From assembly GCF_028712165.1 (NCBI RefSeq), contig NZ_JAQTQR010000017.1, forward strand, positions 1-42,223: a stretch of DNA of 42,223 nt, written 5' to 3'. Positions within the stretch are counted from its first letter, which is position 1; each line of letters begins with the position of its first letter. The position numbers and the translations under genes were made by a program. Source of the DNA: Sulfuricurvum sp. (lineage in GTDB: Bacteria; Campylobacterota; Campylobacteria; Campylobacterales; Sulfurimonadaceae). The notes beneath the pieces are model-generated. The model was given only the letters and a program-made list of their open reading frames with translations. It made no database searches and was not told where the DNA came from. Below, in pieces: positions 1-33,511 of this stretch.

Positions 1-2
1 GT

Positions 3-641
3 CGTACCTTTGAGGAGTATGCGGCATTTTTTGATTTGGATGCCGAGACGATGAAAAACATGAGAGTTTTGGACTGCCCAAGCGGAGCGAGTTCATTTAT
101 ATCTGAAGCCAAGAGCAAAGGGATAGCGGCACAGGGGTGCGATATTCTGTACTGTTATGATCGTGATGCATTGCGTGCACAAGGGGAAAAGAGTATCGAG
201 AAAATCTATGCCGATACGAGCTGGATGGCGGAACATAATTTTGCGTTTTATCATTCGATAGAGAGACATAAAGAGCATAGAGTAGGGGCATTAAAAGCAT
301 TTTGTGACGATTACAATACAAAGGATTATTGGTTCGCCGAACTTCCGAAACTGCCGTATAGGGATGATAGCTTTGATTTGGTACTCAGTTCGCATCTGCT
401 ATTTGTCTATGAGGATAGACTGGATGAAGCATTTCATGAAGCGTCGATTACCGAGATGCTTCGGGTCGGGAAGGAAGTTCGTATTTTCCACCTGGTCGAT
501 TATAAAAACTCTCGAGTAGATGAAGCGGATAACCTTAGTCCGTTAGCCTATCGGATGGCCGAAAAATTCGGCGGGGAAATAGTCAAAGTCGGATTTGAGT
601 TTCAAAAGAATGCAGGGTATATGTTGAAGATAAAACGGTAA
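3..641 (+). CDS. SAM-dependent methyltransferase, 5' end outside window
   Basis: The frame is open to the left edge, so the true start is missing. The first in-window residues (RTFEEYAAFFDL) read like ordinary N-terminal sequence, so the in-frame TTG at 36 is unlikely to be the start. The protein carries a class I methyltransferase pattern: a first strand VLDCPSGASSF resembling motif I (normally DxGxGxG, here degenerate), an acidic-strand segment GCDILY, and the late motif LPYRDDSFDLVLSSHLLF (motif IV, DxFDLV). It probably transfers a methyl group from S-adenosylmethionine to an unknown substrate in the cytoplasm. The next gene starts about 50 bases later on the same strand. Family confidence is good; the substrate cannot be told. 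Confidence 0.75.
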   Translation, partial: RTFEEYAAFFDLDAETMKNMRVLDCPSGASSFISEAKSKGIAAQGCDILYCYDRDALRAQGEKSIEKIYADTSWMAEHNFAFYHSIERHKEHRVGALKAFCDDYNTKDYWFAELPKLPYRDDSFDLVLSSHLLFVYEDRLDEAFHEASITEMLRVGKEVRIFHLVDYKNSRVDEADNLSPLAYRMAEKFGGEIVKVGFEFQKNAGYMLKIKR

Positions 642-691
642 AATGAGAAGAACATTTATATAAAATATATTTTGACGAGATAGAGGTTGAG

Positions 692-1378
692 ATGAAAAAA
701 ACCGTTTTAATAACCGGCGGAAACAAAGGGATAGGATTAGAAGCGACAAAAGTTTTTGTGGCATTGGGTTATAAAGTCATTGTCGTAGCGCGGGATTTTA
801 GCGACTTTAAAGACCATGAATCCGTACAGCAGGTCGTATTTGATTTGACACAAGTGAATAAAATACCTGCGTTCATCGACTCTTTGCCACCGATTGATAT
901 TCTGATCAATAATGCAGGTGTGATGTATTCGATCCCCTATCAGAGCTATAGCTGTGAAAAAATCGATTCGATGATGCAGTTAAATCTTTATGCTCCTATC
1001 AAACTGATCGAAGAAGTTGCCAAAAAGATGCCATTTGGCGGTCGTATTGTTAATAATGCGTCTATCGCCGGACAAATAGGACATCCCGATATTTGGTACG
1101 GGATGACCAAAGCGGCTCTCATTAATGCTACGAAGAGTTTTTCGAAAATCTTTGAGGGAAAAATTATCATCAATGCCGTAACACCCAGCCCCGTCGAAAC
1201 GGATATGCTCGATGTGATACCAAAAGAACGGCAAGAAGCATTTTTAAAGTCGGTCATTACCAAACGTTTCGCTTATCCGCAAGAGATAGCCAAAACAATG
1301 GTCTGGCTTGCTACCGAATCACCTGAATATATCAATGGAAGTGTAATTGATATCAATAATGGGTCATTTCCGAGATAA
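692..1378 (+). CDS. SDR-family NAD(P)-dependent oxidoreductase
   Basis: A 228-residue classical short-chain dehydrogenase, near the usual 250. The Rossmann motif TGGNKGIG lies at residues 8-15, the NNAG motif near 75-78, a catalytic Ser in NNASIAG, and the Tyr/Lys pair in WYGMTKAAL. The C-terminal INGSVIDINNGS follows the normal SDR ending. A GAGGTTGAG ribosome-binding site precedes the ATG. It should reduce or oxidise a small carbonyl or alcohol in the cytoplasm. The substrate is unknown. It is followed after 9 bases by the DUF442-type gene, so the two are probably co-transcribed. Confidence 0.9.
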   Translation: MKKTVLITGGNKGIGLEATKVFVALGYKVIVVARDFSDFKDHESVQQVVFDLTQVNKIPAFIDSLPPIDILINNAGVMYSIPYQSYSCEKIDSMMQLNLYAPIKLIEEVAKKMPFGGRIVNNASIAGQIGHPDIWYGMTKAALINATKSFSKIFEGKIIINAVTPSPVETDMLDVIPKERQEAFLKSVITKRFAYPQEIAKTMVWLATESPEYINGSVIDINNGSFPR

Positions 1379-1387
1379 AGAGAGACC

Positions 1388-1825
1388 ATGTTAGAGAACA
1401 TTTTAAATTATATGCAAATCACGGAACACATAGCTTCATCGGGACAGCCTAATGAGGCTGAATTCGCCGCAATCGCGGATGCAGGATATGACGTCATCAT
1501 AAACCTCGCTATGCCAGATTCGGAAAACGTAATACCCGCAGAAGGTCATTTAGTTACTGCGAACAACATGATCTATATTCATATTCCGGTTCCGTTTGAT
1601 GCGCCTGAGCTTTTTCATTTGAAGTCATTCATTAAAATTATGGAAACATTTGCTGATAAGAAAGTTTGGGTTCATTGTGTAAAAAACTACAGAGCATCAG
1701 CTTTTTTGTACCATTATTTGCGTAAATCACGAGGTCTTAGCACTACTGAGGCACAAAAAGCGATACTTCCATCATGGGAATCGAATGAAATCTGGCAACG
1801 GTTTATGAATATTGATTCTTATTAA
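1388..1825 (+). CDS. DUF442 / protein tyrosine phosphatase-like protein
   Basis: A 145-residue protein. Its N-terminal half (SGQPNEAEFAAIADAGYDVIINLAMP) and its VHCVKNYRASAF motif match a small phosphatase-like family related to DUF442 and dual-specificity phosphatases. The Cys-to-Arg spacing is C-x4-R (C-V-K-N-Y-R), not the C-x5-R of true tyrosine phosphatases. As remembered, this shorter loop is typical of the subfamily and not a local mutation. Activity is therefore uncertain, and the fold assignment is firmer than the enzymatic one. It follows the SDR gene by 9 bases. Confidence 0.75.
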   Translation: MLENILNYMQITEHIASSGQPNEAEFAAIADAGYDVIINLAMPDSENVIPAEGHLVTANNMIYIHIPVPFDAPELFHLKSFIKIMETFADKKVWVHCVKNYRASAFLYHYLRKSRGLSTTEAQKAILPSWESNEIWQRFMNIDSY

Positions 1826-1854
1826 GTTTGCGCATATAATAAAGAGAGATATGA

Positions 1855-2340
1855 ATGAAAAATAAATTACATTTACTATGCGGAAAAATGGCTTCCGGAA
1901 AATCTACGTTATCAAAAAAGCTAGTTGTAGAATATAACGCCATAGCTTTGTGTGAAGATGAGCTTTTGGCAAAGCTTTATCCTGATGAGATCAAAACGAT
2001 CCAAGATTATGTCAAATACTCAGAACGTCTAAAAGAGGCGATTAGACCCCATTTGATCGATCTATTACGAAACAATATGAATGTCGTGATTGATTTTCCG
2101 GCAAACACACAAAAGCAACGAGAGTGGTTCAAAGAAATTTTAGAAATTGCAAACGTTGATCATATTCTCCATTATATGGATAAATCCGATGATATATGTA
2201 AAATGCAGTTGCGAAAACGAAATGATGGATTACCTAAAGATGCTCCTTTGATTTCAGAGGAAGTATTTGATGCAATCACTAAATATTTTGAGCCACCTCA
2301 TGAAAATGAAGGATTTAATATTATTCGATATGCGCATTAA
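1855..2340 (+). CDS. P-loop ATP-binding protein (AAA_33 / zeta-kinase-like)
   Basis: A 161-residue single-domain P-loop protein. Walker A GKMASGKST lies near residues 10-18, an acidic segment CEDELLAKLYPDE follows, and the strand NVVIDFPANT resembles the Walker B or lid-preceding strand of small kinases. C-terminal basic residues (LRKRNDG) fit a nucleotide-kinase lid. Such proteins phosphorylate small molecules, nucleotides or, for zeta toxins, UDP-sugars. Nothing here decides the substrate. The gene is AT-rich compared with the SDR gene and marks the transition to the AT-rich block. The start at 1855 follows AGAGAGAT; an ATG four bases earlier runs straight into a stop. Confidence 0.75.
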   Translation: MKNKLHLLCGKMASGKSTLSKKLVVEYNAIALCEDELLAKLYPDEIKTIQDYVKYSERLKEAIRPHLIDLLRNNMNVVIDFPANTQKQREWFKEILEIANVDHILHYMDKSDDICKMQLRKRNDGLPKDAPLISEEVFDAITKYFEPPHENEGFNIIRYAH

Positions 2341-2434
2341 CTAGGTAAAAAATGCCCCAGATGTGAAACTCGCTGAGGAAGGTGAGCTTTAAAAAAAGTA
2401 ATTGAGGTTATAGGTATCACCTGACCCCTTTATC

Positions 2435-3004
2435 TTAAGCTCCTGATATTTTACTTATAAAGTAACTTCTTATATTATCGAGCATATTATCATATTCTTG
2501 TTTCCTGTACCTATTATTATCAATGATATTTTTACGTTCAGCTGTTTGGCGACTTGGTATATTGGTTAGTTCACCTTTACCATGTGCAAATTCATCTAGT
2601 TGATATAAAGCTTCTTTTATTGTATTTAAATGTATATCATCAATAAACAAAGAACTTTTTTGTAAATAAAAGTTTGATTGATTGATTTGAGAACTAAAAT
2701 CTCTTACTTTTTGAACTGAATAGTCAGTCCATAAATCATCCATTGATTTTTTTAAATCACATAATGACACCCAAAGCTCACCATAAATATCAAATTGTTT
2801 TTCTGAATAACGAAGTAGTACAGTTTTTACACTTGCAACTTCTATCTCATATTTTCTTTTTATTTCTTCCAACTCTTTTGCATATTGGAATTTTTCTTTT
2901 TCTAATATTCTGCTTGCCCACACTTTACCAAGCCATGTTGAGAAGCCGAAAATAATAATTGTAGCTCCACCTGCACCTGTGATAATAGCCCAAAAAATAT
3001 CCAT
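2435..3004 (-). CDS. Membrane-anchored coiled-coil protein, cassette-type
   Basis: A 189-residue orphan. Residues 3-25 are hydrophobic (FWAIITGAGGATIIIFGFSTWL), giving one N-terminal membrane segment. A charged helical stretch follows (about 33-75, EKEKFQYAKELEEIKRKYEIE) that should form a coiled coil, and the rest is polar and mostly helical. The leader from the proposed attC crossover at about 3032 to the ATG is short and holds an AAAGGA ribosome-binding site, as in integron cassettes. Similar anchored coiled-coil proteins of unknown role are common in mobile and defence regions. No full attC-like hairpin follows the stop, only a GCTTAAG at the stop codon resembling a decayed R'' box. Function unknown. 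Confidence 0.65.
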   Translation of the reverse strand: MDIFWAIITGAGGATIIIFGFSTWLGKVWASRILEKEKFQYAKELEEIKRKYEIEVASVKTVLLRYSEKQFDIYGELWVSLCDLKKSMDDLWTDYSVQKVRDFSSQINQSNFYLQKSSLFIDDIHLNTIKEALYQLDEFAHGKGELTNIPSRQTAERKNIIDNNRYRKQEYDNMLDNIRSYFISKISGA

Positions 3005-3025
3005 CTAATTGTGTCCTTTACTGTA

Positions 3026-3094
3026 ACTTAACGTTTAAGATGAGCGGATTAATTACCCGCAGGGTAATTTATTGGCTCCTCTGATTTGTTAGCG
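3026..3094 (-). other. attC-like recombination site 1
   Basis: On the gene (minus) strand this 69-base site begins with CGCTAAC, which contains the stop codon of the upstream gene, and ends with GTTAAGT, a perfect GTTRRRY box. Between them is an imperfect palindrome. AGATGAGC (3038-3045) pairs with GCTCCTCT (3075-3082) with one mismatch. The two arms are separated from the end boxes by 5-base spacers, and the apex is a perfect 8-bp stem AATTACCC/GGGTAATT with a GCA loop (3051-3069). This is the R''-L''-loop-L'-R' layout of integron attC sites. The next gene starts 22 bases after the crossover. Confidence 0.65.
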
Positions 3095-3790
3095 AAGCCA
3101 TTCTTCATCTTTGAAACCAATTTGTTTGAGCAAGAGTTTTCCTAATGAAGTGATTTCATATCCTTTGGTTTCCAATTCATTTGTGTTCCCACCTATTTTG
3201 ATACTGATATTTTTCTTTAGCAATCCTAAAGTAGCCAAATGTTCCTTGTAGCTATTTTGAATAGCTTCTTTATCAATATCTTCTTTACTTCCTCCCAACG
3301 TTGGGATTACTGTTTTCAAAACATTGCTATGTAATTGCCTGAATTCTTTGTCACTATTCATTAAAGGGTTCAAATAGAATCTTAGCCAGATAATCTCTAT
3401 ATCATTTAGCTCTTTTAAAAGGTTTAAAAGGTGTTTGTTTTCAAGATCAGAAATATAATTATTATCCAAACTGTTTTCTATCACTGATGATATATATTTG
3501 ATTCTATCATCAGATAATGCCCTTGAAGCTTGAAACATGCTTTCTTCCATAAGATCAACAAATTCCTCGCTTTTGAGCTTATTATCAAGTTGCTCTTTTT
3601 GAAATTGTTGAAGTTTTTTCTCAAGTTCAAGTACATACCTAGAAAGTCGATCAATTCTCTGATTTGGAACTATGACATCAAACATTTCTTGTATCATTGG
3701 ACCAACAAAAGGGATTGGACCTGCAATTGACTTTATTGTTGATAGTGTGATGTCAGTTTTATTATTTTTTTCAATATCATTTGGTTGCAT
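3089..3790 (-). CDS. Orphan cassette protein with conserved GPIPFVGP N-terminus
   Basis: A 233-residue soluble protein. Residues 20-45 (SIAGPIPFVGPMIQEMFDVIVPNQR) form an amphipathic, hydrophobic segment of a type I recall in several hypothetical proteins of defence or mobile regions. A coiled-coil helix follows at about 50-75 (LELEKKLQQFQKEQLDNKL). The C-terminal third (GLLKKN...YEITSLGKLLLKQIG) resembles a winged-helix end, where 'ITSLGKLLL' is typical. A 21-base leader with GAAGGA separates the ATG from the attC-like crossover on its upstream side, and the stop codon lies inside the next attC-like site. It is a compact one-gene cassette. Function unknown; a regulatory or abortive-infection role is only a guess. 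Confidence 0.65.
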   Translation of the reverse strand: MQPNDIEKNNKTDITLSTIKSIAGPIPFVGPMIQEMFDVIVPNQRIDRLSRYVLELEKKLQQFQKEQLDNKLKSEEFVDLMEESMFQASRALSDDRIKYISSVIENSLDNNYISDLENKHLLNLLKELNDIEIIWLRFYLNPLMNSDKEFRQLHSNVLKTVIPTLGGSKEDIDKEAIQNSYKEHLATLGLLKKNISIKIGGNTNELETKGYEITSLGKLLLKQIGFKDEEWLR

Positions 3791-3811
3791 TGTTCGTCCT
3801 TCTCATTTTAT

Positions 3812-3867
3812 AGCTAACGTTCGTCGTGAGTGACAGCTATGCTGTTCATTCCTCGTACTTGTTATGT
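3812..3867 (-). other. attC-like recombination site 2
   Basis: On the minus strand this 56-base site starts with ACATAAC, six bases after the stop of the ATPase gene, and ends with GTTAGCT. The centre folds as ACAGC-ATA-GCTGT, flanked by a bulged stem (GAGGAATGA against TCACTC) and a further CG pair. The start box ACATAAC is the exact complement of GTTATGT found at the 5' boundary of the same cassette (5503-5509). The 5' GTTAGC of the next cassette likewise pairs with CGCTAAC in site 1. Matching between a cassette's first bases and its own R'' box is a hallmark of integron cassettes. The hairpin is less regular than site 1. Confidence 0.55.
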
Positions 3868-3873
3868 TTTCTT

Positions 3874-5469
3874 TTAAGTTAATGTAGGTAAATAGCTTTG
3901 TAAAGCAGTCGTTATCTCTGTTTGCTTTGACCCTTTTAATAGCCTAACTAATAGTTTACTATACTCTCCAGTTGCAAGACCAAATATTTGAGATATTCTG
4001 TCAGGAAGAGATTTACGATTATATATTAATAGAAGTTGTTCTAAATTTCTTTCATCTATTGCAGTTTGATATAAAATTCTAGATTGTTCATATATATTGT
4101 GAATGTTAATTCTTCCCAAAGTTGTTGTAAGACCATCAGCTAAACCTTGCTCTGTATTTGCTTCTTTTGAAAAGGCGCCTAATTTATATTCAATAATCTT
4201 TTCAGCTTTTGATGAAACCTGATTATCAAACTCTGAGGTTAGTGCATTAACTAAAAAAGTAATAACTTCATCTACTTTTGCATTTGCATCAAGTTCTAAA
4301 TGAAGTGAAATAATCCTAAGAATTGGCTCAATACAAAAAAGATTTTCGATTTCGGCGACAGAAATAGTATATATATTTTGAGTTTCTAGTGCTGTTATCT
4401 CTGGCTGTTCTTTATAATCACTATCAATAATCCCATATGCACTTAAATGATGTAGCGAAACATTACCTCTAAATGCTTTAGTTGCTTCTATCACCTTATC
4501 ACAGCCACCTCTTGGAATAATATGAAAATCAGGGTACATTAATTGATATATTGTAGAATCTAACTTCCCATTTTCTCCCTCACAGAAAACGATATTTTTT
4601 CTATTACCTATGATTTCTAGCATCAAACTTTCAGGCAAATTTTCATCAACAGGAATATCTTCCCATATCCATTGATTATTACCGTGATATTCTTTTATCC
4701 AAATTTTGTTTGCATCGGTTCTAGATGATGCAAATTCTAAATCATGAGTAATATATATAAGTAATTTATTTTGTGTTTTAGACTCTATTTGATTCCAGAG
4801 TTTGTCCACTAATGACTTATGTAGATGTATTTCTGGTTCATCAATGATTATTACAGAGTTGTCAGGCAAACTAAGACACTGACCTATTAGATAGAGGACA
4901 ACTCTTTCTCCATCACTCATTTCTTGACCGTGATACTCAGATTGTCCTACTTTTTTTGCTATTACCTTTCCATCAAGAAATGATAATTCTCGATGAGGCA
5001 TTATTGAATTCCATAACTCAATGATTTCATCTATGGGAGCTTTAGGAACGTCTACATATTCTTGGCTTTCTCTAGCTTGGGCTGTGTAGTTTCTATCTCT
5101 TTCAGCTGATTTAGCAAATAACAATGAAAGAAGCTTGTCATAATCATTTAATAAAAAAGTTGCTGGTTTTTGACCCCATCTAGAGTTTGCTTTTTGCGTT
5201 ATATTAGCATGCTGATCTGATCTACCAAAAATCAATTCTTTTTCTGCTTGTTCTAAATTTTTAATCTGTGCAAAGTCAGGTATACTTAATACTCTTTGTG
5301 CGCTTAGTCTATGTACCGTAATTTGACTTTGAATTAATTCTTCAAGTCGTATACTAAATCGTGTTTTTCCTGCACCGTTTGCACCAACTATAACAATGTT
5401 GTTTTCAGTATGTAATGTTTCTTGGCCTGGAGTGCCATCTTTTTTAGGTAATACAATGTTATATGCCAT
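3874..5469 (-). CDS. AAA ATPase fused to DUF4435 (AriA/AriB-like, PARIS-type) defence protein
   Basis: A 531-residue protein with two parts. Residues 20-285 form an ABC/SMC-like AAA ATPase: Walker A GANGAGKT (29-36), signature SDGER (185-189), Walker B VIIIDEPE (206-213) and the switch His in YITHD (242). From about 292 a Toprim-like DUF4435 domain follows: CEGENGKLD (acidic Glu 297), a dkVIEA segment, GIIDSDY (Asp 349 and 351) and EIENLFC (373-379). This order matches the two subunits of the PARIS anti-phage system (AriA ATPase, AriB DUF4435) joined in one chain, a fused form I recall being described. OLD-family nucleases are the alternative. AT-rich, minus strand, leader begins at GTTATGT, attC-like site follows. 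Confidence 0.8.
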   Translation of the reverse strand: MAYNIVLPKKDGTPGQETLHTENNIVIVGANGAGKTRFSIRLEELIQSQITVHRLSAQRVLSIPDFAQIKNLEQAEKELIFGRSDQHANITQKANSRWGQKPATFLLNDYDKLLSLLFAKSAERDRNYTAQARESQEYVDVPKAPIDEIIELWNSIMPHRELSFLDGKVIAKKVGQSEYHGQEMSDGERVVLYLIGQCLSLPDNSVIIIDEPEIHLHKSLVDKLWNQIESKTQNKLLIYITHDLEFASSRTDANKIWIKEYHGNNQWIWEDIPVDENLPESLMLEIIGNRKNIVFCEGENGKLDSTIYQLMYPDFHIIPRGGCDKVIEATKAFRGNVSLHHLSAYGIIDSDYKEQPEITALETQNIYTISVAEIENLFCIEPILRIISLHLELDANAKVDEVITFLVNALTSEFDNQVSSKAEKIIEYKLGAFSKEANTEQGLADGLTTTLGRINIHNIYEQSRILYQTAIDERNLEQLLLIYNRKSLPDRISQIFGLATGEYSKLLVRLLKGSKQTEITTALQSYLPTLT

Positions 5470-5502
5470 AGCTGTGGTTTATCCTTTATTTATATCTTTG
5501 CA

Positions 5503-5509
5503 ACATAAC
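5503..5509 (-). other. Proposed cassette insertion junction (GTTATGT)
   Basis: On the minus strand the sequence is GTTATGT. Everything before the GTT (5507-5628) matches the flank at 33203-33369, and everything after it differs. The heptamer equals the complement of the R'' box (ACATAAC) of the attC-like site closing the same cassette at 3861-3867. Both facts point to G^TT as the crossover at which the ATPase cassette entered. Confidence 0.5.
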
Positions 5510-5628
5510 TATTTATTCATACCAAAAATGTACCATTTTGCCAGAATTTTACATATCAACATATTTTTAAACATTTTACGCTATTTTTCTTAAAATAATT
5601 TCCGCAAACACGTTAACGGCAGGTTCGA
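5507..5628 (-). repeat. Shared cassette-flank block, copy 1 (with MocR 3' remnant)
   Basis: Matches the block at 33203-33369 in the same orientation: both share TATTTATTCATACC, ACCATTTTGCCAGAA, ATCAACAT and TTTAAACATTTTACG in order, the other copy carrying an extra insertion of about 50 bases. The outer part (5576-5628) translates on the minus strand to IEPAVNVFAEIILRKIA plus stop, nearly the C-terminus of the intact MocR regulator at 12845 (IEPAVRAFAEIILRKML). The MocR remnant touches the amidotransferase stop codon. The block may be an attI-like or secondary insertion site; its exact nature is not determined. Confidence 0.65.
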
Positions 5629-6294
5629 TTAAACTTTATTCCACCAATCCAACAGATCGAACAGCGCTTTATTGGCTGAGGGAATGTGATACGCTTCAGC
5701 TCGTATCGTATCGGCATTATCAATAAACGGAGAATCAAAATCGAGATAAGCGCTATCGGCATTTAAGAGTCCGTTCATGCTCTCTTGAGTCGTCTCAAAA
5801 TGAAATTGTGTTGCGATGATACGTCCATCAGGGGTGGCGAATGCCTGATTTTTAAAGGCATCATTGGAGGCTATGCGTAGCGTCCCCTCGGGAAGATCGA
5901 ATGTATCGCCGTGCCAATGAAATACGCTCATTTTAGGTGCTAGATTTAGGGTGAGCGGATGAGCTGAAATCTCGATATCGTGCCATCCTGCTTCGCGTGT
6001 CTGCGATGAATAGACGGGTGCGCCCATAGCTGATGCGATGAGCTGCGCACCTAAACAGATACCGAAGGTTTTCCCTCCCTCACAAATGCGTCGGCGTAAG
6101 AACTCGATCTCGTTTTGGATGAAATCCAGATCATCGTACGCACTCATCGACCCGCCCAATACGATCAAAAGATCATCTGCTTCCAACGGTTCATTTTCCC
6201 AACATCGGATGATACGGTAAGGGATGTTTCGCATACGTGCCCACTCGCCGATTGCCGCTTCGTTTTCAAAAGGTACATGCTGCCAAATAGTCAT
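5629..6294 (-). CDS. Class I glutamine amidotransferase family protein
   Basis: A 221-residue stand-alone class I amidotransferase domain, like the glutaminase part of GMP synthase. The nucleophile elbow GICLGAQ places the catalytic Cys at 80, and QFHFE places His 165 and Glu 167. The oxyanion region LGGSMSAYDD is normal. Such proteins hydrolyse glutamine or gamma-glutamyl compounds; the acceptor is unknown because no synthase partner is fused or adjacent. A GGAGTAATT ribosome-binding site fits the ATG. It lies 22 bases after the AraC/MGMT/GNAT fusion gene and probably shares its transcript. The stop codon abuts a MocR 3' remnant. Confidence 0.85.
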   Translation of the reverse strand: MTIWQHVPFENEAAIGEWARMRNIPYRIIRCWENEPLEADDLLIVLGGSMSAYDDLDFIQNEIEFLRRRICEGGKTFGICLGAQLIASAMGAPVYSSQTREAGWHDIEISAHPLTLNLAPKMSVFHWHGDTFDLPEGTLRIASNDAFKNQAFATPDGRIIATQFHFETTQESMNGLLNADSAYLDFDSPFIDNADTIRAEAYHIPSANKALFDLLDWWNKV

Positions 6295-6316
6295 AATTAC
6301 TCCTGTAGTGTTTGTG

Positions 6317-7597
6317 TTAGAGTTGTATCCGAAAAGGGATCATCGCCGATTTTTCAAATCCCATCCCTTCGTAAAACCGATGAGCCGATAGATTGTCCGA
6401 ATCGGTCAGGAGGGTTATTCGTCGTATCCCTTTTTCTTTACTGCATGTCAGAACGTATTCGAGCAGGGCAGAACCGATATCCTCTCCGCGATGTTTCTCA
6501 TCGATGACCATATCTTCGAGCAGGGCGACTTTCTCCCCTAATGCCGTCGAGACGGTGTATAAAAGATTCACCATCCCCACAATCTCATCCTCTTTAGATA
6601 CAACGTATATCTCTCCGATAGTCTCATCCTCAATGATTTTTTTCAATCCTCTCACCTGATTTGCTTCATTAGGAGTAAACTCGATCTCTTTCGAAAAGAG
6701 TTGATGCAACAGCCCGCAAAGGCTCGGTATATCTTTGATGGTTGCCGTGCGGTAGGTGATAGGGCTTTCTTTGGATGCCGATTCGTAGGCGATGAGGATC
6801 TTTTTTCGCTCAATCCCCCATCGATAGCCGCTCATAGCACCGCTTTTGGCGATGACGCGATGGCAGGGGATGAGATAGCCGATGTGATTCTCTCCGATGG
6901 CGTTGGCGACCGCACGCACGGCTTTAGGTTTGTCGATGAAATTCGCGACATCCTGATAGGTCGTTATACCGCCGTTAGGGAGATTGATAAGCGCTTTCCA
7001 GACATTGATCTGTAGGTTCGTTCCCTTGACCAAGAGATTGTATTTTTTGTTTTTGATGAAAATATTTTCCAGATAGGTACGGGCTTTTAGATCATCATGT
7101 ACCAGATTGGCATTTTCCCACAGCTCACAAAACCGTTTATAGATCGACTCTTTGTTGTTGTCGATAAATCCCAGATAACAGACCCCTTTGTCGGTATAGG
7201 CGATCAATGCTTCACCGAAAGGGGTGAGTCCGAAACCGTAGGTGATGGTGACGTCTTTCCCTTTTTCGCGCCACTCTTTTGGGGTGACCCCTATGAGATT
7301 GACAAACAGTTCGTGCAGTCTGCTGGAACTGGATAACCCGATATCCAGAGTGCTGTCTAGCAGAGATTTGGACTCTTTGATATGCTCTTTGGCGTAGTTC
7401 AGCGTCACGGAGTGAAGAAATTGTTTGGGCGTTACACCGACATACTCTTTAAACACTCGCATAAAATGGTATTTGCTCATCCCTATGTTTCGAGCTATTT
7501 CATCGATGGAGGGCTGTTCTTTGAAATGGGTGTCGATATAGGTAATGGCTTTGGCAATAAGCTGATAATTCTGATTTAATATCTCGATATCTTGCAT
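6317..7597 (-). CDS. AraC-type regulator / O6-methylguanine methyltransferase / GNAT fusion
   Basis: A 426-residue three-domain protein. Residues about 10-110 are an AraC-type double helix-turn-helix (IDEIARNIGMSKYHFMRVFKEYVG). Residues about 120-275 form the Ada/Ogt-type methyltransferase with acceptor Cys 245 in IPCHRVI. Residues about 282-426 form a GNAT acetyltransferase (EDMVIDEKHRGEDIGSALLEYVL acetyl-CoA loop, DNLSAHRFYEGMGF). The N-terminal phosphotriester-repair domain of Ada is absent. The start at 7597 is preferred because AAAGGTG sits five bases upstream; an in-frame ATG at 7621 lies inside the glyA end and lacks such a site. It probably repairs and senses alkylated DNA while the GNAT domain acetylates an unknown target. 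Confidence 0.85.
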   Translation of the reverse strand: MQDIEILNQNYQLIAKAITYIDTHFKEQPSIDEIARNIGMSKYHFMRVFKEYVGVTPKQFLHSVTLNYAKEHIKESKSLLDSTLDIGLSSSSRLHELFVNLIGVTPKEWREKGKDVTITYGFGLTPFGEALIAYTDKGVCYLGFIDNNKESIYKRFCELWENANLVHDDLKARTYLENIFIKNKKYNLLVKGTNLQINVWKALINLPNGGITTYQDVANFIDKPKAVRAVANAIGENHIGYLIPCHRVIAKSGAMSGYRWGIERKKILIAYESASKESPITYRTATIKDIPSLCGLLHQLFSKEIEFTPNEANQVRGLKKIIEDETIGEIYVVSKEDEIVGMVNLLYTVSTALGEKVALLEDMVIDEKHRGEDIGSALLEYVLTCSKEKGIRRITLLTDSDNLSAHRFYEGMGFEKSAMIPFRIQL

Positions 7598-7607
7598 ACG
7601 ATCACCT

Positions 7608-8870
7608 TTAATAGGTTGCATTATTATAGACTTTAAAACCCTTTAAAAGAGTTTTGAGTTCCTCTTTTATCTGTGCATGAAGAGCAGTATTGTTGATGTC
7701 GTCTAAAACATCGCAGATTTTATGCGCGATAAGGTTAAACTCTTTTTCCTTCATCCCCAGTGTGCTCAACGCGGCAGAGCCTAGGCGTATACCTGAGGTG
7801 GACGAAGCGGGGCGGGGGTCGGATGGAATCGAATTTTTGTTGACTGTGATACCGGCATTTTCCAATGCCACACTTGCGTCTTCCCCGGAAAAATCTTTGT
7901 TAAGCAGTGATACGAGTACAAGATGATTATCGGTTCCGCCGCTGATGAGTTCATAACCCCGCTGGATCAATACATTGGCTAAAACGTTTGCATTGGCTTT
8001 GACTGCTTTGGCATACTCCTTCCATGAGGGGTGCAAAACTTCTCCAAATGCCACCGCTTTCGCAGCAATGACGTGTACCAAAGGTCCCCCTTGTATTCCG
8101 GGGAAGATGGCGCTGTCGATTTTTCTGGCGATCTCTTCGTTGTTCGTCATAATGATACCGCCGCGAGGGCCTCTGAGCGTTTTGTGGGTTGTGGAGGTGA
8201 CGACATCAGCGTAGGGGAACGGGCTCATGTGTTCTCCCGCCGCGACCAATCCGGCGATATGGGCGATATCGGCAAACAAAATCGCTCCGACGACATCGGC
8301 GATTTCTCGAAACCAGGCAAAATCAATTTCACGGGCATAGGCAGAAGCTCCGCACACGATAATTTTGGGTTGAACAATCTTTGCGATTTCCATGACATTA
8401 TCATAATCGATACGACCGTTAGACGCTACACCGTAAGTAAAGGAGTGATAGTTTTTCCCCGAAAAGTTAGGTTTGGCACCGTGGGTTAGATGTCCTCCGT
8501 GGCGTAAATCCATCCCCAATATTTTATCTCCGGCATTCAATAGTGCTGCATAGACGGCTCCGTTTGCCTGACTGCCCGAATGGGGCTGTACGTTCGCAAA
8601 GCGACAGTCGAAGATTTGGCATAATCGATCTTTTGCCAGTTGTTCTATCTGATCGGCAAATTGACATCCGCCGTAGTATCGTTTGTTCGGATACCCCTCT
8701 GCGTATTTGTTGGTAAAAATACTCCCCATCGCTTCCATAACAGCAGGTGAGGTAAAGTTCTCACTCGCGATCATCTCCAGATGTGTTGACTGTCGGTCGA
8801 ACTCATTTTCTATAATGGCGAAAACTTCCGAATCCGCAACCGATAAACTCTCTTCACGTATAAAACTCAT
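7608..8870 (-). CDS. glyA: Serine hydroxymethyltransferase
   Basis: A 420-residue, full-length PLP enzyme that interconverts serine and glycine with tetrahydrofolate in the cytoplasm. Visible family marks are EMIASENF near the N-terminus, [23 protein letters not shown], and the PLP-lysine motif [13 protein letters not shown]. The C-terminal [13 protein letters not shown] is slightly off the common GIRIGTPAxTTRG pattern, so this may be a divergent or second copy. The AraC/MGMT/GNAT gene starts at its end (overlap of a few bases to 11 bases apart depending on start), so they are probably co-transcribed. A divergent promoter region separates it from the FMN-binding gene at 9023. Confidence 0.93.
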
Positions 8871-9022
8871 CGCGTCCCTTTTTTGAATGGTTCGTCAAAG
8901 TTTATCTCTCTGAGTAGATCTTGGCAATCCAAATCTTGCTGAAATAGAGGGAAAATCGAGCAATTTTTGGATTGTTTTTGATTGCTTTTTGAACTAAAAT
9001 TCACCAAAAAAAAGGATTGAGG

Positions 9023-9496
9023 ATGAGACACAGAACCAAGACCCATCTGTTGACACAAGAGCAGATAGAAGCGTTGTTTAAAAGAGCCGAAGTCGGGAGA
9101 ATAGCGACGTTAAATAAAGACGGTTACCCCTATGTTTTACCGATGCACTTTGTATACGATAATACTAAAATATACTTGCACGGTTTACCTAAAGGGCAAA
9201 AAATAGACAATATAAAGGCAAATCCAAAAGTATGTTTTGAGATTGATGAAATGATTTCATTAATCAGCGAGGGTATCGAAGAACCTTGTGATGTTAACAC
9301 CGAGTTTAATAGCATTATCCTTTATGGAACTGCAAGTATTGTGGATGATCTTGATGAAAAGAGAGCGGCATTATCCAAGATTGTAGAGAAATTCACACCG
9401 CATCTGATGGAAAAAGAGTTACCTGTTCCTATGATTAACGGAACGGCAGTCATAAGAATCGATATTGTAGAATGTATAGGCCGATATTATAAATGA
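9023..9496 (+). CDS. Pyridoxamine 5'-phosphate oxidase-family (FMN-binding) protein
   Basis: A 157-residue split-barrel flavin-binding protein of the PNPOx/NimA type. It has the characteristic order VGRIATLNKDGYPYVLPMHFVYDNTKIYLHG, KIDNIKANPKVCFEID and a late GTASIVDDLDEKRAAL. These proteins bind FMN, F420 or haem and reduce small molecules; the substrate is not predictable. The ATG at 9023 is chosen over the TTG at 9017 because AAAGGATTGAGG precedes it. It is divergent from glyA. The YciI gene follows after 41 bases. Confidence 0.85.
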   Translation: MRHRTKTHLLTQEQIEALFKRAEVGRIATLNKDGYPYVLPMHFVYDNTKIYLHGLPKGQKIDNIKANPKVCFEIDEMISLISEGIEEPCDVNTEFNSIILYGTASIVDDLDEKRAALSKIVEKFTPHLMEKELPVPMINGTAVIRIDIVECIGRYYK

Positions 9497-9537
9497 GTAT
9501 GAATTTTGCAGATTGACTAAGATAATGAGGAACAACA

Positions 9538-9825
9538 ATGTTTATTATTTCACTCACCTACATCAAGCTTCTCGAAGACGTTGATCAATATCTGACAGAT
9601 CACGTGGATTATCTCAAAGAACAGTATAGATTAGGTAATTTCCTCGCATCAGGGCGCAAAGTTCCCCGCACCGGAGGGTTGATTTTGGCACGTGGTGCTT
9701 CTCGCGAAGAGATTGAGACGATTATTACCCTCGATCCGTTTCACGCTCACGGAGTCGCTGAGTATGAGATAACAGAGTTTAGTCCGACGATGACGATAGA
9801 AGAATTAGCGTTTTTAAGAGAATGA
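9538..9825 (+). CDS. YciI-family protein
   Basis: A 95-residue YciI-like protein, the usual length. Conserved points are FIISLTYIK at the start, the central His-containing DHVDYLKEQYRLGNFLASG, and DPFHAHGVAEYEITEF. YciI folds as a ferredoxin-like dimer with a His/Asp pair and is linked to dechlorinase- or lactonase-like chemistry in a few cases. A GAGGAACAACA ribosome-binding site precedes the ATG. It ends two bases before the stop of the convergent nitroreductase gene. Confidence 0.85.
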   Translation: MFIISLTYIKLLEDVDQYLTDHVDYLKEQYRLGNFLASGRKVPRTGGLILARGASREEIETIITLDPFHAHGVAEYEITEFSPTMTIEELAFLRE

Positions 9826-9826
9826 G

Positions 9827-10492
9827 TCAATCATAAAATTGTGTAAACTCTTCTAAAACGATACGCTCGGTGCGGTAGCTATTGATAATTGCACTTGTGT
9901 CTTCATAACCCAGTGCCATTCCACAAAGGAGAATTTGCTCTTCTCCGATATTCAACTCTTTTCTGACGATATCCGGATATTCGGCTAATGCAGCTTGTGT
10001 ACAGCTTCCCAAACCTAATTGTGCAGCCGATAGCATCACAGATTGTAAAAACATCCCATAATCCAGCCAAGAGCCTTTTTCCAAAGACGCGTCAATAAAA
10101 AAATACAGTACGACGGGTGCGTCGAAAGCTCTGTAGTTGGCTTTCCATTGCTCTTGCTGCTTTTCTTTGTCTTCTTTTGCAATCTTTAGGGTTTGATACA
10201 TCAAAAGACCCGTTTCTTTTCGTCTGCTTTTATAGGGTTCATTCCATTCAAGCGGATAGTATCGGTAATCCATATTCGGTTTTATGCCCGATTCGAATGC
10301 ATCGATGATTTTGGTTTCGATCTCGCTTTTTGCTTTACCGCTGACAACGCAAACTTTCCACGGCTGCATGTTCACGCCGGATGGGGCATGTTTGGCAGTA
10401 TTCAAAATCATTTCGATTTTTTCTTTTTCGACGGCTTTGTTCACAAAAGCTCTAACGGATTTACGGGATTTTAACGCTTCTAATACGTTCAT
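9827..10492 (-). CDS. Nitroreductase-family protein
   Basis: A 221-residue FMN-dependent oxidoreductase. The N-terminal SRKSVRAF and APSGVNMQPWKVCVV are the flavin-phosphate and flavin-ring segments of the nitroreductase family; the C-terminal ALGYEDTSAIINSYRTER is also typical (GYxD...N.R). It likely reduces nitroaromatics, quinones or other electrophiles with NAD(P)H in the cytoplasm. Its ATG overlaps the stop of a 28-codon ORF (ATGA), and the HxlR regulator lies just upstream on the same strand, suggesting one operon under HxlR control. Confidence 0.9.
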   Translation of the reverse strand: MNVLEALKSRKSVRAFVNKAVEKEKIEMILNTAKHAPSGVNMQPWKVCVVSGKAKSEIETKIIDAFESGIKPNMDYRYYPLEWNEPYKSRRKETGLLMYQTLKIAKEDKEKQQEQWKANYRAFDAPVVLYFFIDASLEKGSWLDYGMFLQSVMLSAAQLGLGSCTQAALAEYPDIVRKELNIGEEQILLCGMALGYEDTSAIINSYRTERIVLEEFTQFYD

Positions 10493-10575
10493 TGCATTGG
10501 CTCAGATGAAAAGGCAATAGTGACTTCATTGATCTGAATAATCGGTTGAATATCCGTATAGTTAATGTTAAACAT
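10489..10575 (-). CDS. Small ORF (28 aa) between HxlR and nitroreductase genes
   Basis: The predicted peptide starts MFNINYTDIQPII and ends FSSEPMQ. It has a good ribosome-binding site (GAGGAATAAAT before ATG), and its stop codon overlaps the nitroreductase start as ATGA, so translation would be coupled. I recognise no family. It may be a leader or small protein, or the surviving start of a deleted gene whose remainder was lost up to the nitroreductase. Confidence 0.4.
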   Translation of the reverse strand: MFNINYTDIQPIIQINEVTIAFSSEPMQ

Positions 10576-10577
10576 AT

Positions 10578-10925
10578 TTATTCCTCGTTTATAGTTTGTC
10601 CGAAAGTTTTGGCATAGTGCTGAGACCATGCGACGACTTCATCAATGACGGGTTTGAGCTGTTGTCCATGAGCACTAAGTGTGTATTCGACCCTCGGAGG
10701 GACTTCAGCAAATACTTCGCGTTTGATCAGATGCAGTTCTTCGAGTTGCTTGAGTTTTGAGGATAACGTTTTATTGGTAATCGGTTGCAAATAGTTTGAC
10801 AATTCTTTAAAACGCATCGAGCCGTTGCTGAGATACCAGATAATCATCAGTTTAAGCCGATCATCGAACATCTCGAAAAATATTTCTGCTGAGAATTGGT
10901 AAGTGTTGCCATTTAGTTTTATCAT
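10578..10925 (-). CDS. HxlR-family winged-helix regulator
   Basis: A 115-residue MarR/HxlR-type dimeric DNA-binding protein. The HxlR core is clear: FFEMFDDRLKLMIIWYLSNGSMRFKELSNYL, ITNKTLSSKLKQLEELHLIKREVFAEVPPRVEYTLSAHG. This family usually responds to electrophiles or redox stress and controls a neighbouring flavin reductase. Downstream lie a 28-codon ORF and a nitroreductase, probably its targets. Upstream at 10962-10986 are three phased TACTA units that could be its operator. The family mark Cys near the N-terminus is not present. Confidence 0.92.
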   Translation of the reverse strand: MIKLNGNTYQFSAEIFFEMFDDRLKLMIIWYLSNGSMRFKELSNYLQPITNKTLSSKLKQLEELHLIKREVFAEVPPRVEYTLSAHGQQLKPVIDEVVAWSQHYAKTFGQTINEE

Positions 10926-10961
10926 GCCGAAACTTTAACTAAGAGTTTCTTTATTTATCAT

Positions 10962-10986
10962 TAGTATATTTTAGTAAACTATAGTA
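10962..10986 (-). promoter_or_regulatory. Phased TACTA repeats upstream of HxlR gene
   Basis: Three TAGTA units (TACTA on the gene strand) start at 10962, 10972 and 10982, exactly 10 bases apart, so they face the same side of the helix. They lie 37-61 bases upstream of the HxlR start. A related TACTAAAA occurs twice upstream of the second HxlR gene at 38687. They are a plausible autoregulatory operator. Confidence 0.45.
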
Positions 10987-11014
10987 ATATTCCCCGCATT
11001 GGAAGGGTGATTTC

Positions 11015-11067
11015 GTCTCGCTTCCAAGCTCCAGCTTGGGAGTGTATATATTAGTCTGCATTCCCAA
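11015..11067 (+). repeat. 53-bp direct repeat, left copy
   Basis: Matches 12070-12122 at 50 of 53 positions. It holds a 7-bp inverted repeat, CCAAGCT-CC-AGCTTGG (11024-11039). Downstream sequence to about 11086 (CATTCCC...GAACGAGGGAA) resembles the widespread interspersed bacterial repeat with cores like TTCCCAAGCTCCAGCTTGGGAA. The pair brackets the ankyrin gene. Confidence 0.8.
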
Positions 11068-11169
11068 CAAGGACGTTGAACGAGGGAAAATTTGCTAATA
11101 AGTAAATAATCGTGTATAATTATAAATATTTAAATTAACTAAAAAATATATTATTATGTGAGATATAGT

Positions 11170-12027
11170 ATGGGTAAAGAAAATTCAATTATTGATATAC
11201 AAGATAAACTTATTTATATTTTAACTTCTATCGTGGGTTTAATAGCTCTTTCATTGTTATTGTGGGAAATCCTTCCAATTTCATTGGATTATGATTTTTT
11301 TTTTAAAAGATATGTAAATCAGTTTTATTTAAAATATTTTGTCATTGCTCTTCCATATATAGGATTGTTAATATCTTTACTAATGGTATTTAAGAAAAAA
11401 AAAGTTTTATGGTTATTTTTATTTTCTATATTTAGTATAATTTATCCTTTTCGTATGCCATTCATCCAATATATAAACCAAAATTTTCATCTAAATATTG
11501 CAGAAAAACCTCAAGATGATTCAACACCGTTATTTAGAGCTGTAGAAATGAATCAGACTAATGAAGTTGTGTCATTGTTGGAGCATGGTGCAAATCCGAA
11601 TGAAACCTTCACATATCATCCTGAAGTTATTTATTCGGCTATTCGTAATAATAATGTAGAAATGGTAAAGCAGTTATTGAAATATGGAGCTAAAATTAAT
11701 AGATACGATCCATTATCTGCTACTCCTTTGCATCTTGCTGTTATTCAGAATAATATTGAAATTGTAAAACTTCTTCTTGATAATCACGCAACTGTTAATG
11801 CTAAAACAATATACGATAACAGTGGAAAAGGACCTGCTTTTGAAACTTATAAGGATGCAGGTAAAACGCCATTACATTTAGCAGTTCAAAGTAATAATTT
11901 TGAAATCGTCAAACTCCTTTTGGAAAATGGTGCAAACCTGAATATTACTGATAATGATAATATAAATGCTTTTGGATATGCAAAAACTGAGGAAATGAAA
12001 ACAACACTTAAGCAGTTTATACATTGA
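11170..12027 (+). CDS. Membrane protein with C-terminal ankyrin repeats
   Basis: About 285 residues. Three hydrophobic segments lie near residues 15-35, 54-73 and 78-94 of this start; after residue 115 come about four ankyrin repeats (TPLFRAVEMNQTNEVVSLLEHGANPN; TPLHLAVIQNNIEIVKLLLDNHATVN; TPLHLAVQSNNFEIVKLLLENGANLN). The ankyrin part probably faces the cytoplasm and binds a protein partner. The ATG at 11170 has a weak GTGAG upstream; a GTG at 11158 would add four residues. Base composition is much richer in A and T than in neighbours, and the gene sits alone between two 53-bp direct repeats, so it looks imported. Partner unknown. Confidence 0.8.
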   Translation: MGKENSIIDIQDKLIYILTSIVGLIALSLLLWEILPISLDYDFFFKRYVNQFYLKYFVIALPYIGLLISLLMVFKKKKVLWLFLFSIFSIIYPFRMPFIQYINQNFHLNIAEKPQDDSTPLFRAVEMNQTNEVVSLLEHGANPNETFTYHPEVIYSAIRNNNVEMVKQLLKYGAKINRYDPLSATPLHLAVIQNNIEIVKLLLDNHATVNAKTIYDNSGKGPAFETYKDAGKTPLHLAVQSNNFEIVKLLLENGANLNITDNDNINAFGYAKTEEMKTTLKQFIH

Positions 12028-12122: not shown

Positions 12123-12155
12123 TGAGCACTTTATGTTCTCATTCACTTTTTTAAT

Positions 12156-26263: not shown

Positions 26264-26366
26264 CGTGAAATCTGAGCGAGTTCTTATCGTCGGTGGCGGT
26301 ATAGCGGGGCTTATGTGTAAAAATCGGCTGGAGCATTTGGGGTACAGACCTGTACTTGTCGAAAAA
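26064..26366 (+). repeat. 303-bp direct repeat, left copy
   Basis: Covers the last third of the intact TetR gene and the first 34 codons of an FAD monooxygenase. The right copy at 27707-28009 aligns without gaps at an offset of 1643 bases, about 93 percent identical (some 21 mismatches, clustered at both ends, with a 100-base core free of differences). lysA lies between the copies. Confidence 0.9.
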
Positions 26367-30789: not shown

Positions 30790-30856
30790 ATATAACATTT
30801 GAATACGCCAATAAAGTACCACAGCTACTTTATTAGTGTGCTATGTTTTGTTACAT
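30790..30856 (-). other. attC-like recombination site 3
   Basis: On the minus strand this 67-base site starts with ATGTAAC, one base after the stop codon of the ATPase gene, and ends with GTTATAT. The centre is a perfect 9-bp stem AATAAAGTA/TACTTTATT (30810-30834) with a 7-base loop, and the outer ends pair as TAACA/TGTTA with a loosely pairing spacer. The end boxes differ from RYYYAAC and GTTRRRY at one position each. It occupies the same place after the gene as sites 1 and 2. Confidence 0.5.
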
Positions 30857-32467
30857 TTAGCCAGAAATATATTCTAAAAGTTCAGCATTAGCTGCATTTT
30901 TCATCAATCTAGCTCGCGTAGGACCAACATTGTAAATATTGTCAATTAAATTTTCTTCAGTACTATTATGTAATTCTTCAATTGTGTTAATTTCAGCTTC
31001 TTTTAGTTTTTCTTTTTGCCATGGAGTTAGTAGAACTAAAACATCAATTGGTTTACGTAGTAAAGACTTTAGAGACTCTCCATATTGTTCTTCATCATTT
31101 GATAAAAGAATTTGATCACTTCCAACATATGAACTATGATTTTTCCCAAATTCAGGAAACTTATTAAGGGCAAGTTTTTTATAAAACTCCGATGATTCCG
31201 CATGTGGATTAGCCTCCAATGAAATCATACAACCATATTTAATTTCATACCGGGAACCTAATTCAGATCTAGTTGCCCTTACTGAACTATCTATTTTTCT
31301 GATAATACCAGTATAAGTTAATAGTCTTAAGGCTTCTTTTACTGCCTCTGGAGAATCTTTATGAATCCAAAAATAGATAGTGGCTTCATTAATTCCCTTC
31401 TCCTTTCTAAGATTATTATATTCTTCAACTCTTGGTATGACTGTTTTTTCTAGAAAATCTCTTCCCCAATCAATTATGCCTCGGTGACCTTTATATTTTT
31501 CTCCAAGTTCTGTATGCTCTGCCCAAATCTGACCACGATAAAATGATTTGATTTCTGAGTTGACATTTGTCGTGTTAAACTTAGCTATGTTCTGAAGAGT
31601 TCTTAATAACATCCTTGGATTACCACCGGATGATAAAGCAAGAGTATTGAATAGTTCCTTTTGTCTATTGATTTCTTCACATAGCTTTTCGTCAGATTGT
31701 TTAACAACTATGTCTTCAAAGTATTGGAGATAATCAGAGTCAGAAATATTTCTCTCTAATTTTTTGTATACACAATCATGAGTTAATTCAAATGTGTCTC
31801 CAAAGTGTGTTACACCTGGGTAAATAGCAGCATTACATGATATGTATGGCGATCTTAGGTCTTTAAAAAGATTAAAGAATTGTCGTTGCTGTTCGGGTCT
31901 AAAAACGTGAGCAGCTTCGTCAAAAAAGAAAATTACTCTTTCAAGTGAATTTTCTTCGCAAATCGTTTGTATCGCTTCTTTTACATCTTCAATGTCAGGC
32001 AGTGTAGATATATCAATTTTAGAATTTCCCCTATATGAATCTTCAAACAAGTTTACTATTTCTTTGAGGCCAATCTGAACTTCATCTTCGGTTCCATTTG
32101 CATCATTGCTTAAAAGACTTGCTGTTAGGGAAGAAACAACGATTCCTTTCCTTCTTAGTTTGTTAAGTAGGTATTTTAGAGTTTTGGCCAACATCCAATG
32201 ATAGAATTGGAGATTGTCCTCTGTGCTTATTAACGAACTCATATTGAAGGGAACAAAGACACTGATATAAGATTCACTTTCAGCTTCTAATTCAAGTTCT
32301 GCAACTCGCATTAAAAAGGACTTTCCAGTACCTCGAGAACCCTCTAATAAACATGGTTCATTTGATTTGAGGGCAGTTAATATATTCCTATCAGCCTCAT
32401 TAATTACTGATAAATTCAAAATATCTGTCTGTTTGATACTTTCTGTTCTTAGATAAAATTCACTCAT
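30857..32467 (-). CDS. ORC/CDC6-like AAA ATPase with C-terminal helix-hairpin-helix-like region
   Basis: A 536-residue ATPase. Walker A EGSRGTGKS (42-50) and Walker B RVIFFFDEAAHVF (Asp 183, Glu 184) sit in an ORC/CDC6-like or STAND-like AAA module (about 15-310); GGNPRMLLRTLQNI resembles sensor 2. A winged-helix-like segment follows (EATIYFWIHKD...ALRLLTYTGIIRKI), and the last 60 residues (INTIEELHNSTEENLIDNIYNVGPTRARLMK) look like a helix-hairpin-helix. Single-copy ATPases like this pair with effectors in anti-phage systems. It follows the HEPN-like gene by 12 bases on the same strand. AT-rich, followed by an attC-like site. Confidence 0.75.
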   Translation of the reverse strand: MSEFYLRTESIKQTDILNLSVINEADRNILTALKSNEPCLLEGSRGTGKSFLMRVAELELEAESESYISVFVPFNMSSLISTEDNLQFYHWMLAKTLKYLLNKLRRKGIVVSSLTASLLSNDANGTEDEVQIGLKEIVNLFEDSYRGNSKIDISTLPDIEDVKEAIQTICEENSLERVIFFFDEAAHVFRPEQQRQFFNLFKDLRSPYISCNAAIYPGVTHFGDTFELTHDCVYKKLERNISDSDYLQYFEDIVVKQSDEKLCEEINRQKELFNTLALSSGGNPRMLLRTLQNIAKFNTTNVNSEIKSFYRGQIWAEHTELGEKYKGHRGIIDWGRDFLEKTVIPRVEEYNNLRKEKGINEATIYFWIHKDSPEAVKEALRLLTYTGIIRKIDSSVRATRSELGSRYEIKYGCMISLEANPHAESSEFYKKLALNKFPEFGKNHSSYVGSDQILLSNDEEQYGESLKSLLRKPIDVLVLLTPWQKEKLKEAEINTIEELHNSTEENLIDNIYNVGPTRARLMKNAANAELLEYISG

Positions 32468-32479
32468 TTTTAATATTCC

Positions 32480-33178
32480 TTATGATTGGCCAAACAATTT
32501 TCTAATAGGCTCAACTTCCTTAAATTCTTCTGGGATAAACTGTAGTAATTCACGTGTAGACTCATCGAATTGCTTGGCATACCTGCATATTGCAGCATAT
32601 AAAATCACTTTTGCTACAGACGTAAAATATTCACAATACAACTCGAATAGTGTGGCGTTATAGCCTAATTTAAGTCCACTGTTTTCCCAAGTTTCGTTAT
32701 TCCCATGAACGTATTCAGAAAGTTTTCTATAAACAGCAATGGCTTTTTTTCTATACTTAATACTATATTCTGAACATTCGCTAAAGAATGCCTTCGCAAA
32801 TCGTTGTGACAAGACACCGTTGTCTTCATCAACTAAGCTTGACCATTTAATATCAGAGCGGCCATCTAACCATTCATGTAACTCCAATTTATTTGCGGAG
32901 AAATACATAGATGCTAGTCCCATCTCAAAAGCCAGCCTCAATGACGAAAAAGCTTGCCTATACAACCCAAGAACTACATTTAGGTTTGCTGACTCCAGTT
33001 GCGCACTAACTGTTATAAGAATTTCTTTTTCTTGTTGATCAAGTAGGCACTCAGCGTATTCGTATACACATGATGATAGATGATGTAGTGTCCCGAGTTT
33101 TTCTTTCTCAGAAATCGTTTCAGTGAATATCGTCTGTGATTCGACATTTAATCTATTGAAGTAATCTTGTATATCCAT
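32480..33178 (-). CDS. HEPN-like protein, probable effector partner of the ATPase
   Basis: A 232-residue helical protein. Residues 60-95 (LYRQAFSSLRLAFEMGLASMYFSANKLELHEWLDG) and 147-160 (AVYRKLSEYVHGNNETW) show the pattern I recall for HEPN-type helical bundles; R151 and H158 form R-x6-H, within the R-x4-6-H spacing of HEPN RNases. The annotation rests on this motif and not on a profile. It would be the toxic or RNA-cleaving half of a two-gene module with the adjacent ATPase. The leader has AAAAGG, and the block before the GTT at 33203 is shared with the other cassette array. Confidence 0.55.
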   Translation of the reverse strand: MDIQDYFNRLNVESQTIFTETISEKEKLGTLHHLSSCVYEYAECLLDQQEKEILITVSAQLESANLNVVLGLYRQAFSSLRLAFEMGLASMYFSANKLELHEWLDGRSDIKWSSLVDEDNGVLSQRFAKAFFSECSEYSIKYRKKAIAVYRKLSEYVHGNNETWENSGLKLGYNATLFELYCEYFTSVAKVILYAAICRYAKQFDESTRELLQFIPEEFKEVEPIRKLFGQS

Positions 33179-33202
33179 GAGAATTAATTAATCCTTTTTT
33201 TT

Positions 33203-33369
33203 AACTATTTATTCATACCCAAAATATACCATTTTGCCAGAAATCCACAAGAAAATAGGACATTCTAAATGTCCTATTATTAGAAATATCCAAGCAGAAC
33301 CTTACAAATCAACATTTTTTTAAACATTTTACGTTGTTATTCTTAAAATTAGCTCCGCAAACCCTTTAA
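33203..33369 (-). repeat. Shared cassette-flank block, copy 2 (with MocR 3' remnant)
   Basis: Same orientation and order as 5507-5628: TATTTATTCATACC, ACCATTTTGCCAGAA, ATCAACAT, TTTAAACATTTTACG. It stops matching just at the GTT (minus strand) where the HEPN/ATPase cassette begins. The part 33329-33369 translates to VKGFAELILRITT plus stop, a third MocR C-terminal fragment. About 50 bases (33248-33300), including an 11-bp hairpin, are inserted relative to copy 1. Confidence 0.65.
33254..33278. other. 11-bp hairpin in the flank block, copy 2
   Basis: AATAGGACATT-CTA-AATGTCCTATT, a perfect 11-bp stem with a 3-base loop and no T-run directly after it. It lies in the part of copy 2 that is absent from copy 1. 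It could be a small mobile insertion, or a protein or RNA hairpin; nothing more can be said. Confidence 0.5.
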
Positions 33370-33511
33370 CGCGAGCCAAGGCGAAAAAAGAGAAGCATTT
33401 TCCTAATTGCGTTCGAAAACACAGAAGAAAAATGATGAACTAAAAGGACTGGGATACACCGATGTTCATCGTCGAAGCCGTTGCGATTTCTGAGGCAATA
33501 GCCCTAGCGAG
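33369..33511 (+). pseudogene. Decayed 3' end of an AhpD-like gene
   Basis: The stretch from about 33441 matches the 3' end of the gene at 22728: it reads GLGYTDV, then after a 2-base deletion IVEAVAI, then loses about 56 bases and rejoins at GGCAATAGCCCTAG, which is the old stop and its 3' flank. The upstream part (33369-33440) still resembles the same family (EKREAF, KTQKKND) but contains a stop codon. The end overlaps the last codons of the ogt gene. Confidence 0.6.

Follow-up and report, generated by a model that had tools for sequence, protein, structure and literature searches.

The locus raises the question of whether one reading frame of Sulfuricurvum sp. (Campylobacterales) encodes both halves of the two-gene anti-phage system PARIS, and whether it does so as a gene cassette of an integron. 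The window, that is, the whole stretch of 42,223 nucleotides analyzed here, was examined by profile, covariance-model and comparative searches, and the features found are collected in Table 1. The reading that we consider very probable is that a chromosomal integron array, which retains attI and attC sites and is without an integrase, carries this single-chain PARIS as its first cassette.

Table 1. Features of the two arrays in the window and of the PARIS protein (a slash marks the crossover point)
Feature	Position	Strand	Detail or basis
Fused AriA-AriB (PARIS), 531 aa	3874..5469	(-)	ATG at 5469, stop ending 3874
ABC-type ATPase part of the 531-aa protein	about aa 1-270		
DUF4435/Toprim nuclease part of the 531-aa protein	about aa 285-531		
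attI-ending leader	5506..5640	(-)	multi-copy leader alignment; 14-mer adjoining true IntI genes
attI core, ATGAATAAATAG/TT	5520-5507	(-)	crossover G5509/T5508
PARIS gene cassette, 1,691 bp, TTATGT... to G of attC R' box	3818..5508	(-)	8-nt closure, start versus R''
attC of PARIS cassette, short type, R'' ACATAAC ... R' GTTAGCT	3812..3867	(-)	closure and position; model R1 weak alone
Second cassette, start G/TTAGC, R'' GCTAAC	3032..3817	(-)	ORF 3790-3089
attC of second cassette	3026..3094	(-)	model R1; DNA fold z=-3.9
Third, incomplete cassette, start G/TTAAGT	2430..3031	(-)	ORF 3004-2435
Second orphan attI leader	33202..33371	(-)	crossover G33205/T33204
Second-array cargo: 232-aa protein without known family and 536-aa AAA ATPase	30857..33178	(-)	
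attC of second array	30790..30856	(-)	model R1, 36.9 bits, E=1.6e-6

The 531-residue frame at 3874-5469, for which the sequence-only reading had named no strand, is on the minus strand; the plus strand is full of stops. Pfam profile searches of the protein matched AAA_21 with 49.5 bits (residues 64-246) and DUF4435 with 70.1 bits (residues 291-460), each against a cut-off of 27, and the protein passed the detection thresholds published for PARIS (AAA_15 32 bits or AAA_21 27 bits; DUF4435 27 bits; PMC9122126). The PADLOC model for fused AriAB, PDLC02982, matched it end to end with 507 bits (E=1.4e-152), residues 6-530 aligning to model positions 30-567 of 570, whereas the runner-up PADLOC model reached 57 bits. 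Profile search identifies the protein as a fused PARIS of the AAA_21 and DUF4435 type, in agreement with the sequence-only reading, which had placed a PARIS-like ATPase and a DUF4435 nuclease in one chain and had proposed searches against AriA/AriB, AAA and DUF4435 models as the check. The discovery paper of 2022 had reported PARIS fusions in a single gene (PMC9122126), and the fusion itself is therefore not new.

The motifs, which had been called intact in both halves, were indeed so. The ATPase half carries GANGAGKT (29-36), SDGER (185-189), IIIDEPEIHLH (207-217) and THD (241-243), and the nuclease half carries CEGE (296-299) and DSD (349-351). In an alignment with 20 homologues of 29-78% identity to the protein, the Walker A residues G29, N31, G32, G34 and K35, the signature residues S185-E188, and likewise P212-E213, H217 and H242 (the H-loop being among the invariant motifs) did not vary. 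E297-G298, D349 and D351 of the nuclease half were also invariant and correspond to the expected Toprim glutamate and DxD, these residues being assigned by motif within this alignment. On the basis of Pfam and these motifs, the C-terminal half is expected to adopt a Toprim fold.

The leader 5' of the PARIS gene ends in ...GGTATGAATAAATAG/TTATGT. Used as a query, it found copies in 15 of the 41 genomes of the genus, with seven matches in the genome itself, and on the cargo side most matches ended at one common point: aligned copies had a common sequence up to ...ATGAATAAATAGTT, followed by unrelated cargo. The same leader-end sequence lies just upstream of intI, in the place of attI, in two integrase-bearing integrons of the host's family. 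When the 14-mer ATGAATAAATAGTT was counted over 298 genomes of the host's order and compared with integrase matches, it was found at most about 300 bp from a divergent intI in six integrons of related genera (G034, G206, G293, two in G247, and G288). Since the 14-mer adjoins intI where attI belongs, the leader end was read as attI. The array start thereby qualifies by sequence as an attI site, at which recombination would have taken place. Several such leaders with differing cargo occur per genome in the genus. A MocR-like (GntR-aminotransferase) gene at 12845-14215 has a 3' end similar to the left part of the leader, whose own left boundary (about AACCTGC) adjoins GTTAAAG. In some sister genomes the leader directly follows the MocR-like gene, which hints at the integron's original place. 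The leader itself may move as a G/TT...G/TT cassette, but its left boundary lies in the short shared stretch of about AACCTGC and not exactly at G/TT.

The opening bases of an integron cassette and the R'' box of its own attC site are complementary. The start of the PARIS cassette, GTTATGTT, matches its R'' region (ACATAAC) over 8 nt, and the second cassette closes over 6 nt in the same way. Closure over 8 nt, at a distance of up to about 4 kb, occurred in 10 of 19 arrays (53%), versus 18 of 342 cross-pairs (5%) in which starts were paired with other arrays as a background. The attC sites were also searched for with a covariance model, R1, built from five attC of an integrase-bearing integron of another genus and one own-genome site. 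Its best two matches in the 42-kb window were 3026-3094 (41.7 bits, E=9.7e-8) and 30790-30856 (36.9 bits, E=1.6e-6); the PARIS attC at 3812-3867 was match no. 4, in place but weak (E=1.3, with 13.7 bits across the whole model). Further own-genome sites are on contigs C31, C63 and C93, and on C31 one can directly read an attI that deviates by a single base, together with two cassettes and a pair of attC that close correctly. The DNA folding of attC sites, taken alone, was only suggestive (z=-3.9 at 3026-3094). Rfam found nothing in positions 1-12000 of the window, and repeat finding within the array gave families at chance level only. As a side observation, an IntI-bearing integron of G293 (locus L093), with five near-identical 72-nt attC and correct closure throughout, provides a clean reference array for the family.

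The earlier proposal that the PARIS gene is the first of an attC-like cassette array was borne out by the attI start and the two attC sites. The second-cassette frame (233 aa) belongs to no family recognized in profile searches, nor was a family recognized for that of the third (189 aa), and in the third cassette a scan with R1 found no attC ahead of the shared right flank. At 32%, the array is far lower in GC than the window (42%). The right flank at 2341-2429 (GGGGTCAGGTGATACCTATAACC) is common to a sister array and weakly to other arrays, and is possibly a repeat or the end of an element; a possible mobile-element right end, GGGGTCAGGTGATACC, is likewise common to one sister genome and weakly to others.

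The closest relatives found for the 531-residue protein were from Bacteroidota (78, 75, 74, 69, 61 and 59% identity), homologues within the host's own order were about 32-38% identical, and in a tree the protein was nested with strong support inside the Bacteroidota group. Among viral contigs, the search for close relatives gave none and an alignment search gave relatives at 28-42% identity. The relatives at 74-75% identity, from Gillisia (L013) and a Bacteroidia bin (L009), are cassettes too, with the start (G)TTGGGTAGC and the R'' box GCTACCCAAC. Between the two loci, identity is 92.6% over 5978-7616, which is exactly the cassette, and no similarity was detectable outside it. The upstream neighbor of the L013 cassette encodes an AAA_15 ATPase, to which AriA, OLD and GajA models gave matches. 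We propose that the PARIS cassette was acquired horizontally, with its close relatives in Bacteroidota, and the attI and attC sites, the closure rule and the cassette-sized block transfer between Bacteroidota support its identification as an integron cassette. Locus L013 of Gillisia limnaea also holds two similar 131-nt attC-like repeats (5853-5983 and 12141-12271); as no full integron integrase was found in Gillisia limnaea, Bacteroidota may also hold integrase-less cassette arrays.

Two other explanations would take away either the PARIS identity or the cassette. Were the protein an OLD- or Gabija-like ATPase-nuclease acting on DNA, matches to its ATPase half from OLD, GajA, PtuA and retron ATPases would be explained, and solved structures were in fact matched by profile in this half only. 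The GajA and PtuA models, however, scored 22-43 bits over the ATPase part alone against 507 for AriAB, while in the C-terminal half DUF4435 scored 70 bits and, among the best 25 matches listed, neither an OLD Toprim nor a GajA model covered this half, making this explanation highly improbable; neither OLD-only best matches nor an unrelated C-terminal fold, either of which the sequence-only reading had named as fatal to it, came up in the profile search. Alternatively, the inverted repeats could be due to chance, with homologous recombination or an ordinary insertion event having brought in the gene. In keeping with chance, a free hairpin scan yielded as many attC candidates from shuffled sequence and is uninformative, and the PARIS attC by itself has the E value of 1.3 given above. 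Against chance stand the rank of 3026-3094 and 30790-30856 as the top two R1 matches, the excess of closure over cross-pairs, the tie of the attI 14-mer to IntI genes, and the Bacteroidota similarity that covers exactly the cassette, so that we give this explanation hardly any credence.

A further explanation is that the genome has an active integrase that was missed, in an assembly gap or as a divergent recombinase. With the draft genome in 130 contigs, an integrase could sit in a gap, which applies to this strain alone; XerCD-like recombinases are present, and the multiple copies of attI could mean continuing activity. The IntI model, however, gave nothing over its cut-off in the genome, where all matches covered parts of the model only and reached at most 61.5 bits, and at E<=1e-40 it matched in none of the 41 genus genomes, yet it exceeded its cut-off in 43 of the 298 genomes of the order, a positive control which indicates that the search works. 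A missed active integrase is therefore unlikely. The PARIS array has two attC sites, the first of them weak by model and dependent on closure, and CALIN with an orphan attI is the most fitting name for it. The proposal of an integron-borne defense cassette thus stood as to the cassette, through attI, attC and closure, but as the array has no integrase, "integron-borne" here refers to cassettes arrayed behind an orphan attI.

Other cargo was found at such sites. The PARIS array lies between a kinase gene (1855-2340) and an amidotransferase gene (5629-6294). At the same kinase/amidotransferase site, sister genome G714 carries a 642-residue KAP NTPase of the candidate defense family PDC-S49 (493 bits; L054:6278-8206), in an array with no recognizable attC at its right end, and sister genome G697 has, on the amidotransferase side, the same leader followed by a PIN-domain gene; two sister genomes thus hold different cargo at one junction. 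Elsewhere, one attI of G718 is followed by a 1,150-residue restriction-helicase-like protein. Of the remaining first-cassette genes that were tested, most belong to no known family, and a predominance of defense genes is therefore not claimed. Of the cargo of the second array in the window, the 536-residue AAA ATPase is ORC-CDC6-like and matches MADS mad8 weakly; the closure of this array, which is among the ten counted above, may be due to chance, because its start is A-rich and the 8-nt match lies away from any attC. Elsewhere in the window, a 303-bp direct repeat with 93% identity occurs at 26064-26366 and 27707-28009, about 1.6 kb apart, and a single frame at 6317-7621 encodes an AraC regulator together with a 6-O-methylguanine methyltransferase domain and a GNAT acetyltransferase.

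PARIS responds to anti-restriction proteins of phages and confers resistance to them. In E. coli PARIS, AriB is released from AriA and cleaves tRNA, and E26 is the residue changed in its Toprim mutant (PMC12409363). The protein described here shares with it the ABC ATPase and the DUF4435 Toprim nuclease, in which Glu and DxD are conserved, but its ATPase part is about 285 residues long versus 464 in the two-gene system, and in one chain a release of AriB as in E. coli is not possible. By homology, the ATPase half would sense a phage protein and change conformation, and this would switch on the Toprim nuclease at the C-terminus, which probably acts as a dimer formed by two chains; the activated nuclease would then cleave tRNA and stop translation, causing abortive infection. 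As AriB cannot leave AriA, activation would occur in place, perhaps through pairing of the nuclease domains of two chains. The attI leader probably supplies expression, a role that we infer, since a promoter scan of the leader gave no sigma-70 match on the gene strand. Insertion of the cassette would be due to an IntI that acted in trans or that was lost later.

Compared with PDLC02982-type single-gene fusions, the protein has the same domain order, Pfam scores above the cut-offs and a full-length model match, and it differs in being an integron cassette whose nearest relatives are from Bacteroidota and not from the host's own order. Defense genes borne by integrons as gene cassettes were reportedly described in 2025 by Darracq et al. 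and Kieffer et al. (both cited in PMC12690207). The settings there were reportedly Vibrio or clinical mobile integrons; the array here is without an integrase, lies at an orphan attI and concerns Campylobacterales and Bacteroidota. Clusters of attC without intI (CALIN) and attI fragments as cassette parts in mobile integrons (delta-attI) have been described (PMC12901181), and the present array resembles them in having attC without a neighboring intI and attI pieces apart from the integrase. It differs in its long attI leader (>100 bp upstream), which occurs several times per genome, each copy before its own cassettes. No description of long attI leaders repeated over a chromosome was found in the literature searched, which is weak evidence of novelty.

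These data would link PARIS to integron mobility and suggest a probable route by which the gene passed between Bacteroidota and the host's order. The sequence ATGAATAAATAG/TT may serve as a DNA handle for cassette-borne defense genes in genomes that integrase-based searches miss. The repeated orphan leaders pose the question of how attI multiplies without its integrase. Tentatively, and with considerable doubt, the integron of the genus could be viewed as a dispersed, integrase-less capture network, in which several attI-leader copies take up cassettes through an IntI acting in trans. If this were true, sister species would swap immune genes at fixed sites, with defense genes among the cassettes.
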